Shown: positions 3,579 to 21,310 of the stretch, one piece after another
Layout of the letters: each line of letters opens with the position of its first letter
Position numbering within the stretch: position 1 is the stretch's first letter
DNA from: a virus
DNA length: 29,997 nucleotides
IMG/VR virus record: IMGVR_UViG_3300027902_000165
Span: 1-29,997 of that record
Reading direction: 5' to 3' (one strand)
The notes under the pieces: generated by a model
The model's input: the letters and a program-made list of their open reading frames with translations, nothing else
Told to the model about the DNA's origin: nothing
Database searches by the model: none
Translations under genes and position numbers: made by a program

Positions 3579-4028
3579 ATGGAAAACATCAACCTACTTC
3601 GTAAACTTGCTTGGTCATTCCATAAGTCAACAGGATTAGATTGGGATGACTTATTTCAAGAGGCAGCATTAGCCTACCTTGAAGCCCGTGATAAATATAA
3701 CAGTGAAAAAGGTAAACCCTCTACCTATATATGGCGAGTGGTTGTGTACCGATTGAATTGTTATTTGTCAGATGAAAGGAATGCCACAAACGGGTTATGC
3801 CCAATAGAGGAAGCAATGTTTCAACAGGCTCCCTCTACAACCTTCTTGGAATCATTGACAAAGGATGCAGAAGAGATAGCAAATATTGTCCTTTCTTCAT
3901 CAAAGAAATTTGTCACTTTACCAACTGAGATGGCAGAAGATAGGATAGCCCATTTGTTGGAAAGGAAAGGTTGGGACTCACACCGTATCGAGAACGGGAT
4001 AACTGAATTAAAAATGGCATGTAGTTAA
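3579..4028 (+). CDS. RNA polymerase sigma-70-like factor (region 2)
   Basis: The N-terminal 60 residues match sigma-70 region 2: a helix, then DWDDLFQEAALAYLEARDKY, then a serine-threonine turn and TYIWRVVVYRLNCYL, which corresponds to the core-binding helix and the start of the -10 recognition helix. The C-terminal half (about residues 95-149) is less clear and could be a reduced region 4 or an unrelated helical domain (EDRIAHLLERKGWDSHRIENGI). At 149 aa it is shorter than an ECF sigma factor. It begins on the base after the stop of the preceding gene. It would direct host RNA polymerase to phage promoters, and the repeated TTCGTATAATAT motif, one copy of which starts two bases after this gene, is a candidate target. 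Confidence 0.75.
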   Translation: MENINLLRKLAWSFHKSTGLDWDDLFQEAALAYLEARDKYNSEKGKPSTYIWRVVVYRLNCYLSDERNATNGLCPIEEAMFQQAPSTTFLESLTKDAEEIANIVLSSSKKFVTLPTEMAEDRIAHLLERKGWDSHRIENGITELKMACS

Positions 4029-4029
4029 T

Positions 4030-4051
4030 CCAAAATTTATTCGTATAATAT
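4030..4051 (+). promoter_or_regulatory. Putative phage promoter, copy 1
   Basis: The core TTCGTATAATAT lies at 4040-4051, preceded by CCAAAATTTA. A core copy with a near-identical ten-base upstream part occurs at 6959-6980 and 10149-10170, and the core alone recurs at 21299-21310. Here it ends 14 bases before the lipoprotein start codon, the distance expected for a -10-type element with a short leader. Confidence 0.6.
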
Positions 4052-6950: not shown

Positions 6951-6958
6951 TAGGTGTA

Positions 6959-6980
6959 TCAAAAATTTTTCGTATAATAT
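6959..6980 (+). promoter_or_regulatory. Putative phage promoter, copy 2
   Basis: The core TTCGTATAATAT is at 6969-6980, preceded by TCAAAAATTT. It heads the gene-free stretch and lies immediately upstream of a Bacteroidetes-type promoter, so the two may be used at different times. Confidence 0.6.
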
Positions 6981-6981
6981 G

Positions 6982-7013
6982 TTTGTAGGTTACAATGAAA
7001 TTACATATATTTG
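6982..7013 (+). promoter_or_regulatory. Bacteroidetes-type promoter
   Basis: TTTG at 6982-6985, a 20-base spacer, and TATATTTG at 7006-7013 match the Bacteroidetes -33/-7 layout. Transcription would begin near 7020, inside a stretch with no open reading frame, which is the reason for calling a non-coding RNA here. Confidence 0.65.
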
Positions 7014-7019
7014 TAAATC

Positions 7020-7160
7020 AATTAGTAAGTATAATTTATAAGGCGGTATGAAAAAGCATAGCTTCATTTTTTTAAGTTTTCGTGATTTTCATAATTGGAT
7101 TTTTTGGTTAACATGTCAGAAGGGAGTAAGTGCCGCCTCACTGAAACCTTCTGATTTTTT
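7020..7160 (+). ncRNA. Candidate structured small RNA, about 140 nt
   Basis: The stretch 6951-7196 has no plausible gene, unusual in this dense genome, yet it has a promoter at its left and an intrinsic terminator at its right. Within it AGGCGG (7041-7046) is perfectly complementary to CCGCCT (7133-7138), which is exactly the six-base loop of the terminator hairpin, giving a potential pseudoknot. A second hairpin forms at 7048-7067 (AAGC-ATA-GCTT core, ATG/CAT outer pairs) and is followed by seven Ts. It could be a stand-alone small RNA or a leader in which the loop pairing controls termination before the downstream gene. I recognise no known RNA family. Confidence 0.5.
7116..7160 (+). terminator. 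Rho-independent terminator 3
   Basis: TCAGAAGG (7116-7123) pairs with CCTTCTGA (7147-7154), with an inner AGTG/CACT stem capped by the loop CCGCCT, followed by six Ts. The loop's complementarity to AGGCGG at 7041-7046 makes this more than a simple terminator. Confidence 0.75.
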
Positions 7161-7186
7161 ATCTTAAGATCTATTGAAAAAATTTA

Positions 7187-7194
7187 TATCTTTG
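7187..7194 (+). promoter_or_regulatory. Possible -7 box before the replication genes
   Basis: TATCTTTG fits the Bacteroidetes TAnnTTTG box and follows terminator 3, but no TTTG is found at the expected distance upstream. If it is used, the transcript would start at about the first ATG of the next gene, making it leaderless or shifting its start to an internal ATG (7260 or 7290). Confidence 0.35.
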
Positions 7195-7196
7195 TA

Positions 7197-7751
7197 ATGA
7201 TGGAAAGGACTAAATTTAACCAAGTAACCAAGACAATTAATATTACAGGAAAGGCCTTCATGAAAGCCGGCGCAATCATCGTAAGAATCATGATAAATGA
7301 AAATACCCTCCGACAGTTATATAAAGAAGAAAGAAAGAATACTTTGTTGGCACCCCAGAAAAGTAAGCCAAGCAAAGAAGATAGGAATATACAATATTAT
7401 CCATTAGCCAAACAATTATCCAAAATTATTCAAATCAAGAAAAATGTAAAACACACCCAACCACAAATTAAACAATGGGCTGATGAAATAAGAAAATTGG
7501 TAGAACAAAATGGAATAGAATATGCCCGAATTAAAAACTTATTAGATTGGTATGAAAAAAATATTGGTGGGGAATATATACCAGTAGTTGAATCTGGATA
7601 TTCATTGCGTACTAAATTTTTAAGGTTGGAAGATGCAGTAGGTAGAAAGAAAACCAAGAAATTTATAGTTGATCCAGATCGTGGTAAATATGTAGAAGGA
7701 AATGATGGTGCTTTATATCATGTTCGTTCTGGAGAAAAATATACTGATTAA
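7197..7751 (+). CDS. Putative replication accessory protein (helicase-loader-like)
   Basis: A 184-residue basic protein directly before the replicative helicase gene, two bases apart. Its middle (KQWADEIRKLVEQNG, then IKNLLDWYEKN) and the following LRTKFLRLEDAVGRKK resemble the C-terminal helicase-interacting region of phage replication proteins of the DnaT/gpO type, where a WY-containing helix precedes a SLRxKFxxL motif. The first 30 residues look less protein-like, and ATGs at 7260 and 7290 (MINENTLRQLYKEER) are possible true starts given the candidate -7 box at 7187. The assignment rests on weak similarity and position; it could also be an origin-binding protein. Confidence 0.6.
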   Translation: MMERTKFNQVTKTINITGKAFMKAGAIIVRIMINENTLRQLYKEERKNTLLAPQKSKPSKEDRNIQYYPLAKQLSKIIQIKKNVKHTQPQIKQWADEIRKLVEQNGIEYARIKNLLDWYEKNIGGEYIPVVESGYSLRTKFLRLEDAVGRKKTKKFIVDPDRGKYVEGNDGALYHVRSGEKYTD

Positions 7752-7753
7752 TT

Positions 7754-9013
7754 ATGATTGAGCGTAAAATCCTAATTGGACTAATCACGTCTACAGAGTT
7801 TTGTCAAAAGATTAAAGACATCTGGGATCTCCAATTAATTGAGTCCACCACCGCCAAACGTTTGGCAAGTTGGATATGGGAATATTATGCCAAGTATGGT
7901 AAGGCTCCAGGCAAGGAAATTGAAACCATCTATTATTCAAAAATCAAAGGTGGTAAACTTGCAGCGGATGTAGCAGAGGAAATAGAACAGGAGATTTTAC
8001 CAGGATTAAGCAAAGAATATGAAAATAATTCCTTCAACTTGGAATACCTGCTGTCTGAGACAGAGAAGTATTTCAACGAGAGACATCTAACCATACATAA
8101 AGAGAATATTGAATCTTTACTTGCTGCAGGACAAGTTGAAGAGGCTGAGAAAATGGCAAAGGAATTCAAGCCTCTTGGAACTTCTACTGGGAAATTAGAT
8201 GAATTTATTTTAACTGCTAACCAGATAAGGAACAAAGGAAAAGAGCATTCAACAGTTCTTATGAAACCTTGGCTTAAAGAAGGGCAGACTACTATTATTT
8301 ATGGAACATTTGGTTCAGGTAAATCCTTGTTGGCAATTTCAGTTGCCTATGTACTTGGTGTACGAAACTATGAAGATAAGAAATGTGATATAGTAGAATG
8401 GCAGGTAAAGCATCCAACCGGGTGTCTATATATTGATGGAGAGTTAGGTGAACAGGAAATGGAGGAAAGGATAAAACAATTTGAATGGCTTGGAAAGCAA
8501 CCTCCTGAATATAAGCTTCGAATCCTATCTGTTCCAGAGTATCAGTTGGCAACTGAGGATTCATTCTATTTATCAGATAGGGAAAATCAAAGAAAGATAA
8601 TTCAATGGCTTAAGGATCATCCAACCTATAAATTGGTAATACTTGATAGTGCCAGTACTTTATTTGGTTTATTAGAAGAGAATAGTAACTCAGAATGGAA
8701 TAACAAGATAAGTCCTTTTCTTCGCGATCTAAGAGCCCTCAGTGTAGCATGTATATTATTACACCATGCCGGTAAGGACGGCAAGAAGGGGTTAAGGGGT
8801 GCCTCTGCTATGGGTGCTATGGCACATAATATATTTAAACTTACCAATCATGAAGGAAAAGTTATTGAAGAAGGGAAAGCCTGGTTTGTTTTAGATAAGG
8901 ATAAACAAAGAGCTTCAGGATACAGCTTTAAAAAGTTTGCATTACAATATACACAAGATCTTAATAAGACAGAGACACATTGGAAGAAAACAGGAATTGA
9001 CTTAAATAATTAA
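7754..9013 (+). CDS. RepA/DnaB-like replicative helicase (RecA fold)
   Basis: A hexameric-helicase-type ATPase. Walker A GTFGSGKS is at residues 184-191, Walker B is in KLVILDSAST, and ILLHHAGKDGKKGLRGASAM supplies the H-loop region and the glycine-rich L-loop typical of RepA and AAA_25 proteins. The N-terminal 150 residues are helical (KENIESLLAAGQVEEAEKMAKEF) and resemble the DnaB N-terminal and linker domain. It should unwind the fork ahead of the polymerase encoded at 19.9 kb and cooperate with the primase-like protein at 4.7 kb. Length of 419 aa fits. QueD begins 10 bases later, so the modification genes may share its transcript. Confidence 0.85.
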   Translation: MIERKILIGLITSTEFCQKIKDIWDLQLIESTTAKRLASWIWEYYAKYGKAPGKEIETIYYSKIKGGKLAADVAEEIEQEILPGLSKEYENNSFNLEYLLSETEKYFNERHLTIHKENIESLLAAGQVEEAEKMAKEFKPLGTSTGKLDEFILTANQIRNKGKEHSTVLMKPWLKEGQTTIIYGTFGSGKSLLAISVAYVLGVRNYEDKKCDIVEWQVKHPTGCLYIDGELGEQEMEERIKQFEWLGKQPPEYKLRILSVPEYQLATEDSFYLSDRENQRKIIQWLKDHPTYKLVILDSASTLFGLLEENSNSEWNNKISPFLRDLRALSVACILLHHAGKDGKKGLRGASAMGAMAHNIFKLTNHEGKVIEEGKAWFVLDKDKQRASGYSFKKFALQYTQDLNKTETHWKKTGIDLNN

Positions 9014-9023
9014 ATTCAAAATT

Positions 9024-9377
9024 ATGTTTACAATTAGAAAAGAGTTTGCGTTTAGTGCCAGTCATGTATTGGCTAACTTACCTGAAGACCATCCCTGTTC
9101 AAGGGTTCACGGTCATAATTACATCGTGACTGTTGAATTAAAAGACAAGAAACTCAACGATGCTGGATTTGTTTGTGACTACCGGGCATTGGAACCTATC
9201 AAGAAGTATATTGATGAAACACTTGATCACAGACATTTGAATGAAGTCCTTCCTGGTCAACCCTCTGCTGAATTAATAGCAAAGACAATCTATTGGAAAT
9301 TTAAACCGATGTTCAAACAACTCTGTGCAGTAGAAGTGAGTGAAACCCCCAAAACAAAAGCACGCTATGATGGTTAA
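9024..9377 (+). CDS. queD: 6-carboxy-tetrahydropterin synthase (QueD)
   Basis: QueD converts dihydroneopterin triphosphate, the FolE product, to 6-carboxytetrahydropterin, the second step towards 7-deazaguanine. The T-fold signature is complete: zinc histidines H14 (FSASH), H29 and H31 (VHGHNY), the active-site cysteine C25 (DHPCSRVHGH), the D-H pair in LDHRHLN (D68, H69), and the substrate-binding glutamate near the C-terminus (VSETP, E107). Length of 117 aa is normal. QueE follows with an 11-base overlap. A tetrahydrobiopterin-type PTPS is the alternative, but the QueE and QueC neighbours decide for QueD. Confidence 0.93.
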   Translation: MFTIRKEFAFSASHVLANLPEDHPCSRVHGHNYIVTVELKDKKLNDAGFVCDYRALEPIKKYIDETLDHRHLNEVLPGQPSAELIAKTIYWKFKPMFKQLCAVEVSETPKTKARYDG

Positions 9378-10137
9378 ACAAATTATTCCAGCTGATCACC
9401 ATCTTACTCGAAAAGAGTTTCAAAAGGATGGTGATAATTTTCTCCATGTATCAGAATTTTACTTTGATACAATTCAGGGGGAAGGGATTCATATAGGGGT
9501 GCCAGCAGCCTTTCTACGTCTACAAGGTTGCCCGTTAGGTTGTTCCTATTGTGACACTACGGAGGTGTGGAGATATGGTACTCCTTGGACTTTTGATGAA
9601 TTAATTCGTCTAATTGATGCAGCTGGATTAAATACAAAACTGTTGAATGGACATCACTTGGTGATTACAGGTGGAAGTCCTTTGCAACAGCAGGAAAGGT
9701 TATACAATTTCATAAAGGCTTTTGAATCCTACTTTGGGTTTCTCCCCTTCATTGAAATAGAAAATGAATGTACAATTTTACCAAAAACATATTTTGCCAA
9801 TCTTATAGCCTGTTGGAACAATTCTCCAAAACTTGAAAGCTCTGGTGTTAAATTTGAGGATAGGTATAAACCAGATGTCATTCAGGTTACTGCTAATAAT
9901 CCAAGATCCTGGTTTAAATTTGTTATTTCCAAGGAAGAGGATTGGGATGAGATTGAAACTGGATTTCTTATGCCAGGGTTAATAGGAATACGTCAGATAA
10001 TCTTGATGCCCGAAGGTGCTACAAGAGAAGAATTGGAACGAAACAGAGAATTAACCGTAGAATTGGCTGTACAGCACGGAGTTAGGTATAGCACCAGGGA
10101 GCATATTGTCCTGTGGAATAAAAAAATTGGGGTTTAG
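9367..10137 (+). CDS. queE: 7-carboxy-7-deazaguanine synthase (QueE, radical SAM)
   Basis: QueE rearranges 6-carboxytetrahydropterin to 7-carboxy-7-deazaguanine (CDG). The opening FDTIQGEGIHIGVPAAFLRL is diagnostic, followed by the cluster motif CPLGCSYC (C55, C59, C62) that binds the SAM-reactive 4Fe-4S. The SAM-binding motif reads TGGSPLQQ (101-108) where many family members have TGGEPL. At 256 aa it is slightly longer than most bacterial QueE proteins. I place the start at ATG 9367; GTG 9340 is possible but adds a proline-lysine tail without family character. It ends with TAG, one of only two TAG stops among the genes here. Confidence 0.93.
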   Translation: MMVKQIIPADHHLTRKEFQKDGDNFLHVSEFYFDTIQGEGIHIGVPAAFLRLQGCPLGCSYCDTTEVWRYGTPWTFDELIRLIDAAGLNTKLLNGHHLVITGGSPLQQQERLYNFIKAFESYFGFLPFIEIENECTILPKTYFANLIACWNNSPKLESSGVKFEDRYKPDVIQVTANNPRSWFKFVISKEEDWDEIETGFLMPGLIGIRQIILMPEGATREELERNRELTVELAVQHGVRYSTREHIVLWNKKIGV

Positions 10138-10148
10138 TCAAGCATGTT

Positions 10149-10170
10149 CCAAATATTTTTCGTATAATAT
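10149..10170 (+). promoter_or_regulatory. Putative phage promoter, copy 3
   Basis: The core TTCGTATAATAT is at 10159-10170, preceded by CCAAATATTT. It would drive a transcript with a leader of about 150 bases containing direct repeats, leading into the acidic protein and then the tightly overlapping FolE-to-Nudix gene string. Confidence 0.65.
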
Positions 10171-10195
10171 GTTTGTTAGGATAAATCAATAGAGT

Positions 10196-10280
10196 AAAGA
10201 AACCCAGGTAGTCCAAGTGAATCAAAAATAAAAAGAAACCCATATTCATAAAGTGAATCAAATTAAAAAGTGAATATCAA
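10196..10280 (+). repeat. Bipartite direct repeats in the leader of the acidic protein gene
   Basis: Two 31-base units, 36 bases apart, each consist of AAAGAAACCCA, eight variable bases and AAGTGAATCAAA (10196-10226 and 10232-10262). A partial third copy, AAGTGAATATCAA, is at 10268-10280. They lie between the promoter-like motif and the ATG at 10324, where a regulatory protein or RNA-binding factor could act. The region 10281-10323 is A/T-rich with nothing else visible. Confidence 0.7.
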
Positions 10281-10323
10281 TTTTATTTAATTATTTCTAT
10301 TACTAATTTAAAAATCAAATTTT

Positions 10324-11016
10324 ATGGCAGAATTGAAAGAACTGCGGTCCGCCGCAAAAGAATTGGTTAGCGTACTTGGTCTTGTTGACAAGAAGAAAAA
10401 AGACATTGTTATCACCAAAGACATGGATGAGGATGATCTCACCAAGATTATCACCGATGCTCTTCCACTTATTGATCCCGCCCAGGATGAATTCTCAGAT
10501 GAAACCCAGGAAGTAATTGATGAACTCAATGGTGGTGATGCAGAGGAAGTTGAAGAAGAAGAAGAAGAAGAGGAAGAAGTCCCCGCTCCTAAGAAAAAAG
10601 GCAAACCGGCTCCTGTAGTTGAAGAAGAGGAAGAAGAGGAAGAAGAGGAAGAAGAAGTTGCTGAAAAGATTCACAAGAAAAACATCGCCAACAAAAAGGT
10701 GAACTCAAAAGAGGACGTTGAAGAGGAAGAGGAAGAAGATGAAAAACCGAAAGCAAAGAAATCCGGCAAGACTCCTCCGAAGGGTGTGAAACCCAACTTC
10801 AAGAAAGAAGGTTCAATGGCACAGTTTATGGACGACACCGTTAAGGCTGGGGGAACCTGGGACGAAATGGCAGCCGCCTGTAAAGAGGAAGGTGAATCAA
10901 GAGGTGTTACAACCAAGTTCACTTCAAGTGTTATCAAAGCCCATGTTAAATTCCGCGTGAGCAAAGATCCTAAGTTTCTTGGCAAACTCAAAATGAAAGA
11001 AAATGGGGTTGAGTGA
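10324..11016 (+). CDS. Acidic low-complexity protein
   Basis: A 230-residue protein with three parts. Residues 1-70 are a helical, charged N-terminal region. Residues 73-140 carry three glutamate runs (73-85, 100-111, 130-140), separated by lysine-proline linkers (APKKKGKPAPV). The C-terminal 85 residues (VKPNFKKEGSMAQFMDDTVK onwards) form a small basic domain with a predicted helix-turn-helix-like arrangement. The linkers closely resemble those in the tail of the ssDNA-binding protein at 23.0 kb, including EDEKP followed by lysines. Such polyacidic tails mimic DNA or bind basic proteins; a role as a chaperone of DNA-binding proteins is possible. FolE starts inside its last codons (14-base overlap). 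Confidence 0.75.
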   Translation: MAELKELRSAAKELVSVLGLVDKKKKDIVITKDMDEDDLTKIITDALPLIDPAQDEFSDETQEVIDELNGGDAEEVEEEEEEEEEVPAPKKKGKPAPVVEEEEEEEEEEEEVAEKIHKKNIANKKVNSKEDVEEEEEEDEKPKAKKSGKTPPKGVKPNFKKEGSMAQFMDDTVKAGGTWDEMAAACKEEGESRGVTTKFTSSVIKAHVKFRVSKDPKFLGKLKMKENGVE

Positions 11017-11554
11017 GGATTTAATCCAATCACTCTTACGACAGATAGGGGAAGATTCTGAGAGGGAAGGCCTCAAAGAAACCCCCTGTCGAGTCGTAAA
11101 AAGTTGGAAGGAATTATATGCTGGGTACGGAGTAGATGTACCCAGCATATTCACTACTTTCGTTGATGTTCATGGCTACAACCAAATTGTTATTTGTAAA
11201 GATATTGAAATGTATTCTACCTGTGAACATCATATGTTACCGTTTTTCGGTAAGGCTCATGTAGCCTATTTGCCAGACAAAAAAGTAGTAGGGCTATCTA
11301 AACTCGCTCGGATCGTTGATGTGTTCTCTCGTCGCCTACAAATACAAGAGAGGATTGGAGAACAAGTTACCGATGCTATAATGGACAATTTAAAACCCAA
11401 AGGTGCAGCTTGTATTATTGAAGCCAGTCATTTATGTATGCGTATGCGTGGTGTAAATAAACAGCAATCAACTATGGTTACGTCATCACTTCGTGGTGTC
11501 TTCCTGCAGGACATTGGTGCCCGTGCAGAATTACTTGAACTAATAAAACTCTAA
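11003..11554 (+). CDS. folE: GTP cyclohydrolase I (FolE)
   Basis: FolE opens GTP to dihydroneopterin triphosphate, the entry point to both folate and 7-deazaguanine. The zinc site is complete: CEHHMLPF (C74, H77) and SHLCMRMRG (C145), with catalytic histidine H143. GLSKLARIVDVFSRRLQIQE and the C-terminal STMVTSSLRGVF are family hallmarks. At 183 aa it is the length of a bacterial enzyme lacking the long N-terminal extension. A phage copy ensures precursor supply when host folate synthesis is limiting. It opens the overlapping gene string that runs to the Nudix gene. Confidence 0.95.
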   Translation: MGLSEDLIQSLLRQIGEDSEREGLKETPCRVVKSWKELYAGYGVDVPSIFTTFVDVHGYNQIVICKDIEMYSTCEHHMLPFFGKAHVAYLPDKKVVGLSKLARIVDVFSRRLQIQERIGEQVTDAIMDNLKPKGAACIIEASHLCMRMRGVNKQQSTMVTSSLRGVFLQDIGARAELLELIKL

Positions 11555-11557
11555 GTT

Positions 11558-12208
11558 ATGTCAAACATTGTTATAACTGGTGCCAGCTCTGGCATAGGAA
11601 AGGCTCTTTATGAATCCTTCTATGAAGATACAGCATGGAGATGTAGTAATGGAAGACACTTCTCCAAAAAGGAAGTAATTGGAATAAGTCGAAGAGGTCC
11701 TGATATTAAATTTGATATCAGAGGTGAATTTCCTGCCCATCCTTTTGTAAAAGATGTCAGTTGTTTAATCAATTGTGCTGGTATTATGCCTTTAGATGAA
11801 TCAGAAGGGGAAGATATATTCAATGTAAACTTCTGGGGCACTTATAAAATGATTTGGAATTTACGTTCTGAATTTATGAAGGATTGTTGCATAATAAACA
11901 TTGCATCTGTCTCTGGAATAAAACCAGATCCTGATCTTCCAATCTATGCTGCATCAAAAGCTGCAGTCATATCTCTTACCAAAAGTTATGCTAAATTCTT
12001 TGCTCCTCATTTTCGAGTGAACTGTATTAGCCCAGGTTTTTATAAAACGAATTTGGTTTTGGGAGAGATACCACACGAATTGATTAATACTATACCAATG
12101 GGGTATGCTGATAACCCAGTCAATTTATATCCTGTTGTAAAAATGATTATTGACAATAAATATATAACAGGTTCAAATATAATTGTGGATGGAGGTGTGT
12201 CATTATGA
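11558..12208 (+). CDS. Short-chain dehydrogenase/reductase (SDR)
   Basis: A classical SDR: cofactor motif TGASSGIG (residues 7-14), NCAG (72-75), catalytic serine in NIASVSG (117 or 119), YAASK (Y130, K134), and the C-terminal GSNIIVDGG strand that closes the Rossmann fold. At 216 aa it is a little short. It would use NAD(P)H to oxidise or reduce a carbonyl or alcohol. Nothing in the sequence fixes the substrate. Its position between FolE and the radical SAM gene, overlapping the latter by four bases, suggests it modifies a pterin, deazaguanine or sugar intermediate. A sepiapterin-reductase-like role is possible but would not explain QueE, QueC and DpdA. Confidence 0.88.
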   Translation: MSNIVITGASSGIGKALYESFYEDTAWRCSNGRHFSKKEVIGISRRGPDIKFDIRGEFPAHPFVKDVSCLINCAGIMPLDESEGEDIFNVNFWGTYKMIWNLRSEFMKDCCIINIASVSGIKPDPDLPIYAASKAAVISLTKSYAKFFAPHFRVNCISPGFYKTNLVLGEIPHELINTIPMGYADNPVNLYPVVKMIIDNKYITGSNIIVDGGVSL

Positions 12209-13233
12209 TGAATTCATTAACCTATTTAACTCGGAGGTGTCCACGTAGATGTGGATATTGTGCTTTACGTGATGCCAAAGGGCTCGGTCCTGAACTATCC
12301 CCGGAACAATGGATAGAGGCATTTAAAATCTTGAAAGAGATTGGTGTGGAATTTAATCTTATCCTTGGTAATGAAACATGGTTACTTGGTGAGGATTTGA
12401 TAACCATACTCAAAGAGAACAAGGTTCCATTTGCTCTATACACCACAGCCCCTGAACCTCTTTGGACAAACTACCGTGACAAGTTTTTTGAAAGCGGTGT
12501 ATTGGACAACCTATCCTGCGGGATGGACTATCCAATCATTGAAGGGTTATATGTTGAGGATGATTCCTACCATAAATCTAAGAGTGCTTTGGAGGCTTTT
12601 AAATGGATTAAAGAAAAATATCCAGAGGTTGATACACAAGGAAACATTACTGTTCACAAGAAAAACCTGTCTTATGTTCCATTGCTTGTAGCCCAGCTGT
12701 CTCAGATGGGTGTGTTTGTAGGGATGAACTTCATACACTGGAATTCCGACGGTAACTTTGATTTCTTTCCTGGTAAAGAAGAGATAGCTGATTTACTTTT
12801 CAGTCGTGAGGATTTTCCAGAGGTAGTTAAAACCTTAGCAAGAATATTACAAAATCCAGGGTTGTTACAAAATCCCGAGATTGTTCAAATGATAGCAAAC
12901 AAACCTGAATTACTTTTAATGAATTGGCATTGTATGGGAAACCCTTACGGGGGACCTTCAATTGATTCCGATGGTTCATTAAGAGTATGTGGATACAGAC
13001 GGGGAACTCGTACACCAAAGATATCTATATTTGACTTACCTGAGAAACTTGATGAATGGAAAGAGGCAGTTTATAATGATGCCTGGGATTGTCCAGGTTG
13101 TAATTGGGCCTATCCAATGATGGTTCATTATTGGGAAGAGAATGATAATGCAATGGGACGTGAGGTATTTGTCAAACATGCTGGCAATCATATTGAAAAG
13201 AACAAATGGTCTAAACGAATAATTGACAAATGA
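12205..13233 (+). CDS. Radical SAM protein with SPASM-like C-terminal cysteines
   Basis: The cluster motif CPRRCGYC (C12, C16, C19) is close to the N-terminus, as in radical SAM enzymes with a compact barrel. The C-terminal third has four more cysteines: C243 (NWHCMGNP), C262 (LRVCGYRRG) and C296/C299 (DCPGCNW), a spacing like the auxiliary 4Fe-4S site of SPASM or twitch proteins. The stretch GPSIDSDGSLRVCGY is typical of SPASM domains. At 342 aa it is not QueE-like, and the second overlapping ATG (12208) is an alternative start. The substrate is unknown; within this locus it is the best candidate for a new chemical step on the deazaguanine or its sugar. Confidence 0.85.
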   Translation: MMNSLTYLTRRCPRRCGYCALRDAKGLGPELSPEQWIEAFKILKEIGVEFNLILGNETWLLGEDLITILKENKVPFALYTTAPEPLWTNYRDKFFESGVLDNLSCGMDYPIIEGLYVEDDSYHKSKSALEAFKWIKEKYPEVDTQGNITVHKKNLSYVPLLVAQLSQMGVFVGMNFIHWNSDGNFDFFPGKEEIADLLFSREDFPEVVKTLARILQNPGLLQNPEIVQMIANKPELLLMNWHCMGNPYGGPSIDSDGSLRVCGYRRGTRTPKISIFDLPEKLDEWKEAVYNDAWDCPGCNWAYPMMVHYWEENDNAMGREVFVKHAGNHIEKNKWSKRIIDK

Positions 13234-19895: not shown

Positions 19896-21296
19896 ATGAG
19901 ATATATCCCAAAATTTGAAGAGGCATACCAGTTACTCCATAATGGAATACTTGCTTTAGCCAATGCTGAACAGCAAGGACTCCGTGTTGATACAGAGTAT
20001 ATTGATCAGAAAATGAGAGTGCTTGCTCATAAAATTGAAAAGTTGGAAACTGAATTTAAACAGACAACCTTTTTTAAACATTGGCAGCACTCAACAAGAG
20101 GTACAATAAATATTCATTCGGGAACTCAATTAGGGATATTCCTTTATAGAGTAAAGAAAATAAAAGTTGAAAAGGAAACTATATCTGGACAGGGGGCAGT
20201 GGATGATGAAGCTCTGAGGCAAATGAATATACCAGAACTGGACAACCTGTTAAAAATCCGTAAACTGAAAAGGGTTCGTGATACTTATTTAAGTGCTTTT
20301 CAAAGGGAACAGGTAAACGGGTATCTTCATCCTTTCTTTAACCTACATTTGGTAACGACATACCGCTCCAGTTCTGACCATCCCAATTTCCAGAATATTC
20401 CCAAACGTGATGAGGAATCTATGCAGATTTGTCGTAAAGCATTATTTCCACGTCCAGGTCATCAATTACTCGAGATAGACTATTCGGGACTTGAAGTCCG
20501 TATTGCTGCCTGTTATCATAAGGACAGTACAATGTTAGACTATATAAACAATCCTAAGAGTGACATGCATGCGGATATGGCTAAACAAATCTTTATCATA
20601 GATAAATTTGATAAAAACATTCCTTCTCATTATACATTGCGACAGGCTGCTAAAAATGGATTTGTGTTTCCAGAATTCTATGGTGACTATTATAAAAAAT
20701 GTGCAATAAACATGGCATGTTCCTGGGGGAAATTGTCACAAGGGAAGTGGGGGAGAGGGGAAGGGATTGAAATAGATACAAAAGAGTTTACTTTGTCAGA
20801 TCATTTTATAAGTAAAGGGATTAATTCATTAGATAAATTTTCTGAGCATGTTAAAAAGATTGAGATTGACTTCTGGGAAAATAGATTCTCTGAATATGCC
20901 GCTTGGAAGGATCGTTGGTATAATGCCTACAGGAAAAACGGTTATATTGATTTATTAACAGGATTTCGCTGTCAGGGAATCATGGGTAGGAATGACTGTA
21001 TAAATTATCCTGTACAGGGTGCAGCATTCCATTGTTTATTGTGGAGTTTTATTAGGTTAGATGAACTTATAAGAAGTGAAAAACTTGATAGTCGATTGGT
21101 TGGGCAAATACATGACTCCATTTTACTTGATGTAGCACCCGATGAGTTAGAGTACATTCAAGAGATGGCTCACAAAATAACTTGCTTTGAATTACCTGAG
21201 ACTTGGAAGTGGATAATTGTACCATTAGATGTAGATATGGAAATAGCTCCAGTAGATGGTTCATGGGCAGAAAAGGAAAAATACAGTTTTAAATGA
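19896..21296 (+). CDS. Family A DNA polymerase, polymerase domain only
   Basis: The replicative polymerase, without its own exonuclease domain: 466 aa starting at the thumb. Motif A is LLEIDYSGLEVRIAA (DYSGLEVR 195-202). The O-helix region is RQAAKNGFVFPEFYG (249-263), in which the RxxxK pair is kept but the aromatic spacing differs from E. coli Pol I by one residue. Motif C is QIHDSILLD (406-408 HDS, with serine where Pol I has HDE). TTYRSSSDHPNFQNIP precedes motif A as in all family A enzymes. Proofreading would be supplied in trans by the upstream UDG-exonuclease protein. The last codon overlaps nothing, and a promoter motif follows immediately. Confidence 0.92.
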   Translation: MRYIPKFEEAYQLLHNGILALANAEQQGLRVDTEYIDQKMRVLAHKIEKLETEFKQTTFFKHWQHSTRGTINIHSGTQLGIFLYRVKKIKVEKETISGQGAVDDEALRQMNIPELDNLLKIRKLKRVRDTYLSAFQREQVNGYLHPFFNLHLVTTYRSSSDHPNFQNIPKRDEESMQICRKALFPRPGHQLLEIDYSGLEVRIAACYHKDSTMLDYINNPKSDMHADMAKQIFIIDKFDKNIPSHYTLRQAAKNGFVFPEFYGDYYKKCAINMACSWGKLSQGKWGRGEGIEIDTKEFTLSDHFISKGINSLDKFSEHVKKIEIDFWENRFSEYAAWKDRWYNAYRKNGYIDLLTGFRCQGIMGRNDCINYPVQGAAFHCLLWSFIRLDELIRSEKLDSRLVGQIHDSILLDVAPDELEYIQEMAHKITCFELPETWKWIIVPLDVDMEIAPVDGSWAEKEKYSFK

Positions 21297-21298
21297 AA

Positions 21299-21310
21299 TT
21301 CGTATAATAT
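21299..21310 (+). promoter_or_regulatory. Putative phage promoter, copy 4
   Basis: TTCGTATAATAT starts two bases after the polymerase stop and ends 13 bases before the clamp-loader ATG. The upstream flank (AAATGAAA) is less conserved than in copies 1-3, perhaps because it overlaps the polymerase stop codon. Confidence 0.55.

Follow-up and report, generated by a model that had tools for sequence, protein, structure and literature searches.

The presence of a terminator-like hairpin directly ahead of phage replication genes, with a loop able to pair with an earlier segment of the same RNA, raises the question of whether the pairing matters and whether the RNA stands alone or leads into the genes. 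We addressed it in a virus record of 29,997 bases (hereafter, the window). A preliminary description had placed in a gene-free gap (6951-7196, 246 nt, 26% GC) a promoter, an RNA body and a terminator, and its coordinates were all correct when the letters were re-checked, including the promoter spacing (TTTG at 6982-6985, 20 nt, then TATATTTG at 7006-7013) and the full complementarity of the terminator loop CCGCCT (7133-7138) to AGGCGG (7041-7046). The GC-rich match is indeed striking: the + strand of the whole window holds only two AGGCGG and three CCGCCT, which makes their co-occurrence at 7041 and 7133 unlikely by chance. The features of the locus, where the kiss is the pairing between these two segments, are:

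6982..6985, + strand: -33 promoter element TTTG, from its sequence, the 20-nt spacing to 7006 and the Bacteroidetes consensus
7006..7013, + strand: -7 promoter element TATATTTG, with a predicted start at about 7018
7035..7052, + strand: 5' hairpin H1, TTTATA-AGGCGG-TATGAA, complementary arms around the partner, weak in the window
7041..7046, + strand: kiss partner AGGCGG, perfect complement of 7133-7138, with compensatory changes in relatives
7053..7114, + strand: linker, A-rich then U-rich, 62 nt (12-83 nt in relatives)
7115..7155, + strand: predicted terminator hairpin H2, folding at -16.0 kcal/mol
7115-7123/7147-7155, + strand: lower stem P1 of H2, covarying in the alignment of relatives
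7124-7128/7143-7146, + strand: internal loop GAGTA/GAAA of H2, between P1 and P2
7129-7132/7139-7142, + strand: upper stem P2 of H2, covarying in the alignment of relatives
7133..7138, + strand: apical loop CCGCCT of H2, which kisses 7041-7046
7156..7160, + strand: U-tract TTTTT of the terminator, from its sequence; a T-rich tail follows H2 in nearly all relatives
7187..7194, + strand: possible, weak second promoter-like motif TATCTTTG, which would give a near-leaderless mRNA; TTTG is absent at the proper spacing
7197..7751, + strand: first downstream gene, DnaD-like helicase loader / replisome organizer (PHROG 2514, E 2e-11)
7754..9013, + strand: second gene, AAA_25/DnaB-like replicative helicase (PF13481, E 1.9e-22)

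The Bacteroidetes -33/-7 promoter consensus is TTTG/TANNTTTG, and in Flavobacterium johnsoniae the G of TAnnTTTG sits at -5 (PMC6847099). Applying this rule, we predict an RNA from about 7018 to about 7160. The hairpin followed by a U-tract upstream of a gene is the arrangement of transcription attenuators. H2 was not picked up by a consensus promoter/terminator scan of the window, because the internal loop splits its stem. The arms around the partner, the GAGTA/GAAA interruption of the terminator stem and TATCTTTG at 7187-7194 add to the preliminary description. The conserved start of the DnaD-like gene is probably the ATG at 7200, judging from the aligned starts of relatives, M(E/Q)RTKF. Upstream, the neighbour of the element is a lysozyme-like SLT gene (SLT score 21.2, marginally under the cut-off of 21.3). 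An ORF of 39 aa (7048-7167) was considered as a small protein and rejected: its frame is not kept, the linkers of loci L005 and L011 differ by an indel, and relatives use other frames.

Several other features of the window were recorded. An intergenic repeat block with TTCGTATAATAT(GTTTG), likely a class of phage promoter, occurs in four copies (4027-4051, 6956-6986, 10145-10176 and 21286-21310) and is also found 5' of the kissing element in L005 and L011. Beside the replication genes, positions 9024-13233 encode a QueD-like PTPS, a QueE-like radical SAM protein, a GTP cyclohydrolase I and another radical SAM protein; these 7-deazaguanine-type synthesis genes suggest that the phage DNA is modified. 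Two nearby intergenic repeats of AGAAACCCA...AAGTGAATCAAA (10198-10275) are possibly an operator or iteron, and a tandem GGCAACGGCTAC-type repeat lies at the contig end (29899-29988).

The thermodynamic folding of the window's RNA body alone is unremarkable (z 0.11), so the evidence for the element is comparative. The H1 stem of the window consists of AU pairs plus one G-U pair, folds at -0.1 kcal/mol and is not distinctive by itself (null fraction 0.23); a longer linker hairpin competes with it in folding. In the window, the contact may be one of loop to single strand. This copy is atypical in having a weak H1, a long linker and a gap of 41 nt to the gene that holds a promoter-like motif.

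Relatives were collected by helicase and DnaD searches of viral contigs, which gave more than 50 loci. Most have a terminator hairpin just 5' of the DnaD-like gene, with a loop complementary to a segment some 20-90 nt upstream (partner/loop pairs include AAACGGG/CCCGTTT, AGTCGG/CCGACT, AGTTGG/CCAACT, AGCTAG/CTAGCT and ATGCCG/CGGCAT). The predicted terminated RNA of compact relatives measures about 80-95 nt, against about 140 nt in the window. In some loci, e.g., L017, L036, L040, L041 and L052, the element is absent directly 5' of the DnaD-like gene; in L020, an HNH-like gene sits between the element and later genes. Inspection of L010, L012, L014, L021, L023, L025, L032, L034, L044 and L057 revealed pairings of 7-16 bp, mostly with larger loops and lacking the internal-loop motif, which we regard as a putative variant form of the element. 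Those at L014 (4344-4436), L025 (3567-3702) and L034 (892-978) pair the upstream segment to the loop over 15-16 bp, and the purine internal loop is absent from them. Searches of named phages with the window's own nucleotide and protein sequences returned no match, and searches of bacterial genomes with the helicase gave no useful relative.

The preliminary description had proposed that compensatory changes in AGGCGG/CCGCCT among relatives would test the pairing, and such changes were found at all six pairs. We aligned 13 phage loci with MAFFT, using no information on structure. The kiss columns are 96% paired and all six pairs change on both sides (16 such cells); the row of the window is off by one column at H1, which costs it some pairs. 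In 500 shuffles, neither the paired fraction nor the covariation score was ever reached, and shifting the kiss columns by 1-3 positions destroys the signal. P1 and P2 also covary in this alignment. Of 45 distinct elements, which carry 31 distinct kiss cores, 43 have a perfectly complementary partner 6 nt or longer, compared with 49 out of 1902 swapped pairs (2.6%). The exact apical 6-mer has a perfect upstream partner in all 20 loci with a defined apical loop and in none of 372 swapped pairs, in a set that came partly from a scan already requiring such pairing; the structure-blind alignment and a protein-independent pattern scan are therefore the cleaner tests. An initial comparison of own with swapped partners over a wide search space gave a weak signal (own best in 10 of 31) and was replaced by the exact-loop and alignment tests. 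Close relatives show double changes as well (L005/L011 and L126/L130), and in L126/L130 the linker is near-identical while the loops are different yet matched.

The pattern scan of viral contigs used only the internal-loop sequences, GGAGTA...GAAACC plus a T-run, or a few more stem bases. It identified 35 distinct hairpins able to form at least 4 base pairs, and every one with at least 8 base pairs has a kiss, except L190. A strict descriptor gave 28 matches, compared with none in shuffles of an equal amount of sequence, and at most one element per record in the 13 records fetched whole. These comparisons show a genuine loop pairing that selection has maintained: matched mutations preserve it in dozens of phages of Bacteroidota-type bacteria, some related and others not.

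The sequences on either side of the partner can pair into an H1 stem with 4 bp or more in 42 of the 45 elements (combined p 2e-18 versus other positions of the same stretch), which makes a loop-loop kiss the family feature. The pseudoknot described preliminarily thus stands as a pairing and is refined as usually loop-loop in the family, with a weak H1 in the window. The internal loop between P1 and P2 reads AGTA/GAA in 13 out of 22 protein-found elements and has a purine version, GGA/GAA, in about six more, so that about 19 of 22 carry either form; elements found by pattern were left out of this count because they had been selected for GAGTA/GAAA. AGUA/GAA matches in sequence the bulged-G (sarcin-ricin) module. 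In 28 of 45 elements (8% in shuffles), an exact TAnnTTTG occurs no more than 60 nt before the kiss partner, often so near that H1 would be transcribed first. H2 precedes the start codon by a median of 17 nt, and by 3-26 nt in 43 of 44 elements, the exception being the window (41 nt). The window is also the only one with TAnnTTTG between H2 and the gene. Overall, 42 of 44 elements, the window not among them, combine a start codon at most about 25 nt from H2 with a gap free of promoter motifs, as assessed with one promoter motif. Comparison of the loci thus supports the kiss, H2, a family-wide H1, the position of the element, the upstream promoter motif and, in relatives, the promoter-less gap between H2 and the gene.

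The first genes after the element encode DnaD-like, AntA antirepressor, NUMOD4-HNH, MUG113-like, Mom-like and DUF6291 proteins, DEAD/SNF2 helicases and helicase-methylases. The protein-independent pattern scan recovered elements ahead of antirepressor, HNH, Mom-like, DUF6291 and helicase genes. This diversity argues for a general leader: the preliminary placement of the element 5' of replication genes is right for the window and not as a general rule, since other early genes also lie downstream. Among named phages, the element is found 5' of Ant in Tenacibaculum phage Gundel_1, with GAGTA/GAAA and CATCCAC/GTGGATG in Flavobacterium phage FCL-2, ahead of the operon holding the DnaD-like gene in Cellulophaga phage phi18:3, and, by reading, as the variant form in Flavobacterium phage elemoA. 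A relaxed scan of the inspected regions of FCV-1, Riemerella GRNRAP2 and PT33, VA7, Vibrio and Dulem phages found no element. A tyrosine integrase is present in 3 of the 22 records tested, and most records are thus without sign of being temperate. In L175, the element and an HNH gene are alone on their strand, with opposite-strand genes on both sides, so the expression of the HNH gene appears to require read-through.

Further observations concern individual loci. Elements lie directly 5' of HNH genes in L020 (by start sequence), L125 and L175, of a GIY-YIG-like gene in L166 (by sequence only) and of a MUG113-like gene in L188, as if the leader travelled with homing endonuclease genes. In L146 (3138-3835, minus strand), the gene immediately 3' of the element encodes a Mom-family DNA modification protein; control of mom in phage Mu is known to be layered. 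L123 differs from the other loci in that about 450 nt separate the element from the start of its AntA gene; a permuted tmRNA (RF04321, 64 bits, 6955-7230) lies there just 5' of the element and the antirepressor gene.

The choice between a stand-alone RNA and a leader, left open preliminarily, falls in favour of a leader that is read through, given the short H2-gene gap, promoter-less in relatives, the upstream promoter motif and L175. We think it a little likelier right than wrong that the element is a kissing-loop attenuator, i.e., a leader with a conditional terminator, and that it belongs to a family of phage leader RNAs not catalogued so far; probably, it is a genetic switch missing from existing catalogues. 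Transcription would start at a Bacteroidota-type promoter close 5' of the element, and the small hairpin H1 would form first. After the A/U-rich linker, the polymerase would make H2, whose six-nucleotide loop would pair with that of H1, and the lower stem and U-tract would act as an intrinsic terminator about 17 nt 5' of the start codon that opens an early operon, in most cases a replication operon. The default product would be a short terminated RNA, and expression of the operon would need read-through. The kiss and the conserved internal loop would set how often H2 terminates. We lean towards a kiss that favours termination, where breaking it, or capture of a loop by a protein or RNA, would lead to read-through; the opposite sign is possible. 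Termination, read-through and their tuning by the kiss, like the signal sensed by the element and the kiss control of read-through, are what we infer from these features.

When the elements were folded, P1 was predicted to form in nearly all of them, the linker was mostly unpaired, and no competing antiterminator was common to the linkers. Any switch would therefore most naturally turn on the kiss itself or on a factor that binds it. A linker antiterminator seen by eye (GGTTTTGG with CCAGAACC in L006) was rejected because it concerns one locus and is not conserved. Several points weigh against an attenuator. Compact phage genomes often have terminators just 5' of genes, and termination that is simply leaky requires no switch. 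Since H2 and the kiss can coexist, the route from pairing to altered termination is not obvious. The window, with its weak H1, long linker and 41-nt gap, is atypical.

A stand-alone small RNA, made of promoter, H1 and H2 terminator, in which the kiss protects or shapes the RNA for a role in trans while the gene uses another promoter, would account for the promoter motif and terminator that bracket the element, for two hairpins near the RNA ends, as fits a stable RNA, and, in the window, for TATCTTTG just 5' of the gene. We consider it unlikely: the start codon is tightly near in 43 of 44 elements, a promoter motif lies in the gap only in the window, no other source of mRNA is apparent for the gene of L175, and the loop sequences are not conserved, leaving no common target by pairing. 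Less probable still, the kissed hairpins might be a 5' mRNA structure serving translation or stability rather than termination, by keeping the ribosome-binding window open or by protecting the 5' end. In Flavobacterium, initiation is tuned by how open the mRNA is from -20 to +20 (PMC6847099), and H2, ending a median of 17 nt before the ATG, reaches the border of this region; yet the U-tract that comes right after the stem almost everywhere is unneeded by a mere stability element.

The kissed fold might also act as a PUT-like, RNA-only antiterminator, binding the elongation complex so that it passes H2 and later terminators. Its head-of-operon position and a structure that is fixed while the loop sequence is free are consistent with this, but the element has a terminator U-tract, which to our knowledge known PUT elements do not carry, and we find this reading quite improbable. 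It is highly improbable that the element confers specificity in trans as do the P4 CI RNA and P1 C4 RNA, the terminated RNA of one phage pairing with nascent leaders that have the same loops and shutting them down. The diversified loop pairs (31 distinct cores) and the joint change of loops over an unchanged linker (L126/L130) would suit it, but plain compensatory drift also yields diversity, and the rarity of tyrosine integrases leaves most records without sign of being temperate. We give a slim chance to the conjecture that the loops are a recognition code, in which a terminated leader from one phage would target, in trans, any leader whose loops match its own and shut off replication operons by loop type; if true, the code would serve copy control or superinfection exclusion and would explain the matched loop changes over unchanged linkers. 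Chance complementarity within an ordinary terminator, to which the lack of a significant folding signal in the window alone and its weak H1 stem might point, is already refuted by the compensatory changes and opposed by the recovery of the element independently of proteins, and is next to impossible.

The element combines a defined kiss and a recurrent internal loop in a short RNA, lies 5' of early genes in many Bacteroidota-type phages and is absent from Rfam 15. It would offer a testable control point for the timing of phage replication, in a phylum where little is known about regulation by RNA. A terminator loop that pairs upstream, with no common competing antiterminator, is an unusual design, and its orthogonal loop pairs are a possible source of programmable parts.

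Neither the window's element nor those of 32 other loci reach the gathering cut-off of any Rfam 15 family. Relaxed searches gave only sub-threshold matches in the window, to rteR (25.6 bits, cut-off 72) and FopS (24.2 bits, cut-off 56); for the elements of 8 compact relatives they gave none. A reading as type III toxin-antitoxin or ribozyme was dropped for want of repeats and of an Rfam match. No earlier description was found in a literature search limited to open-licence papers. Membership is supported for none of the known systems that we compared: P1/P7 c4 RNA, terminator-overlapping riboswitches, IsrK, P4 CI RNA and ColIb-P9 repZ.

The c4 antisense RNA of phages P1 and P7 (RF01695) is a phage leader RNA that controls an antirepressor gene. 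Some kissing elements similarly precede AntA-type genes, but they differ from it in having no Rfam match. The c4 antisense RNA is listed in PMC2864571, as is the crcB (fluoride) riboswitch, a leader RNA overlapping a terminator. Unlike crcB, the element has no Rfam match, no common set of ligand-related genes and no conserved kiss sequence. In Gifsy-1, the terminated small RNA IsrK shares its promoter with an mRNA that reads through into an antirepressor-like gene (PMC4825925); that paper does not describe IsrK as a kissing-loop terminator, and its sequence and host are unrelated. In the satellite phage P4, leader RNA pairing (CI RNA / seqA-seqC leader) governs transcription termination before the replication genes (PMC4825925). 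P4 acts in trans through a processed RNA in lysogens, whereas here the pairing is within one RNA, the terminator would be intrinsic and most records lack a tyrosine integrase. Of the features of the ColIb-P9 type, a conserved leader ORF was not found and, by reading, there is no CAAAnnTA antisense promoter in 7047-7115. The repZ leader of this IncI-alpha plasmid contains a pseudoknot that is an expression switch, according to the passage of PMC8383071 citing Asano and Mizobuchi. The likeness lies in a leader pseudoknot ahead of a replication gene, and the difference in what is switched: there, an antisense RNA switches repZ translation, whereas here the pairing hairpin is itself the predicted terminator.
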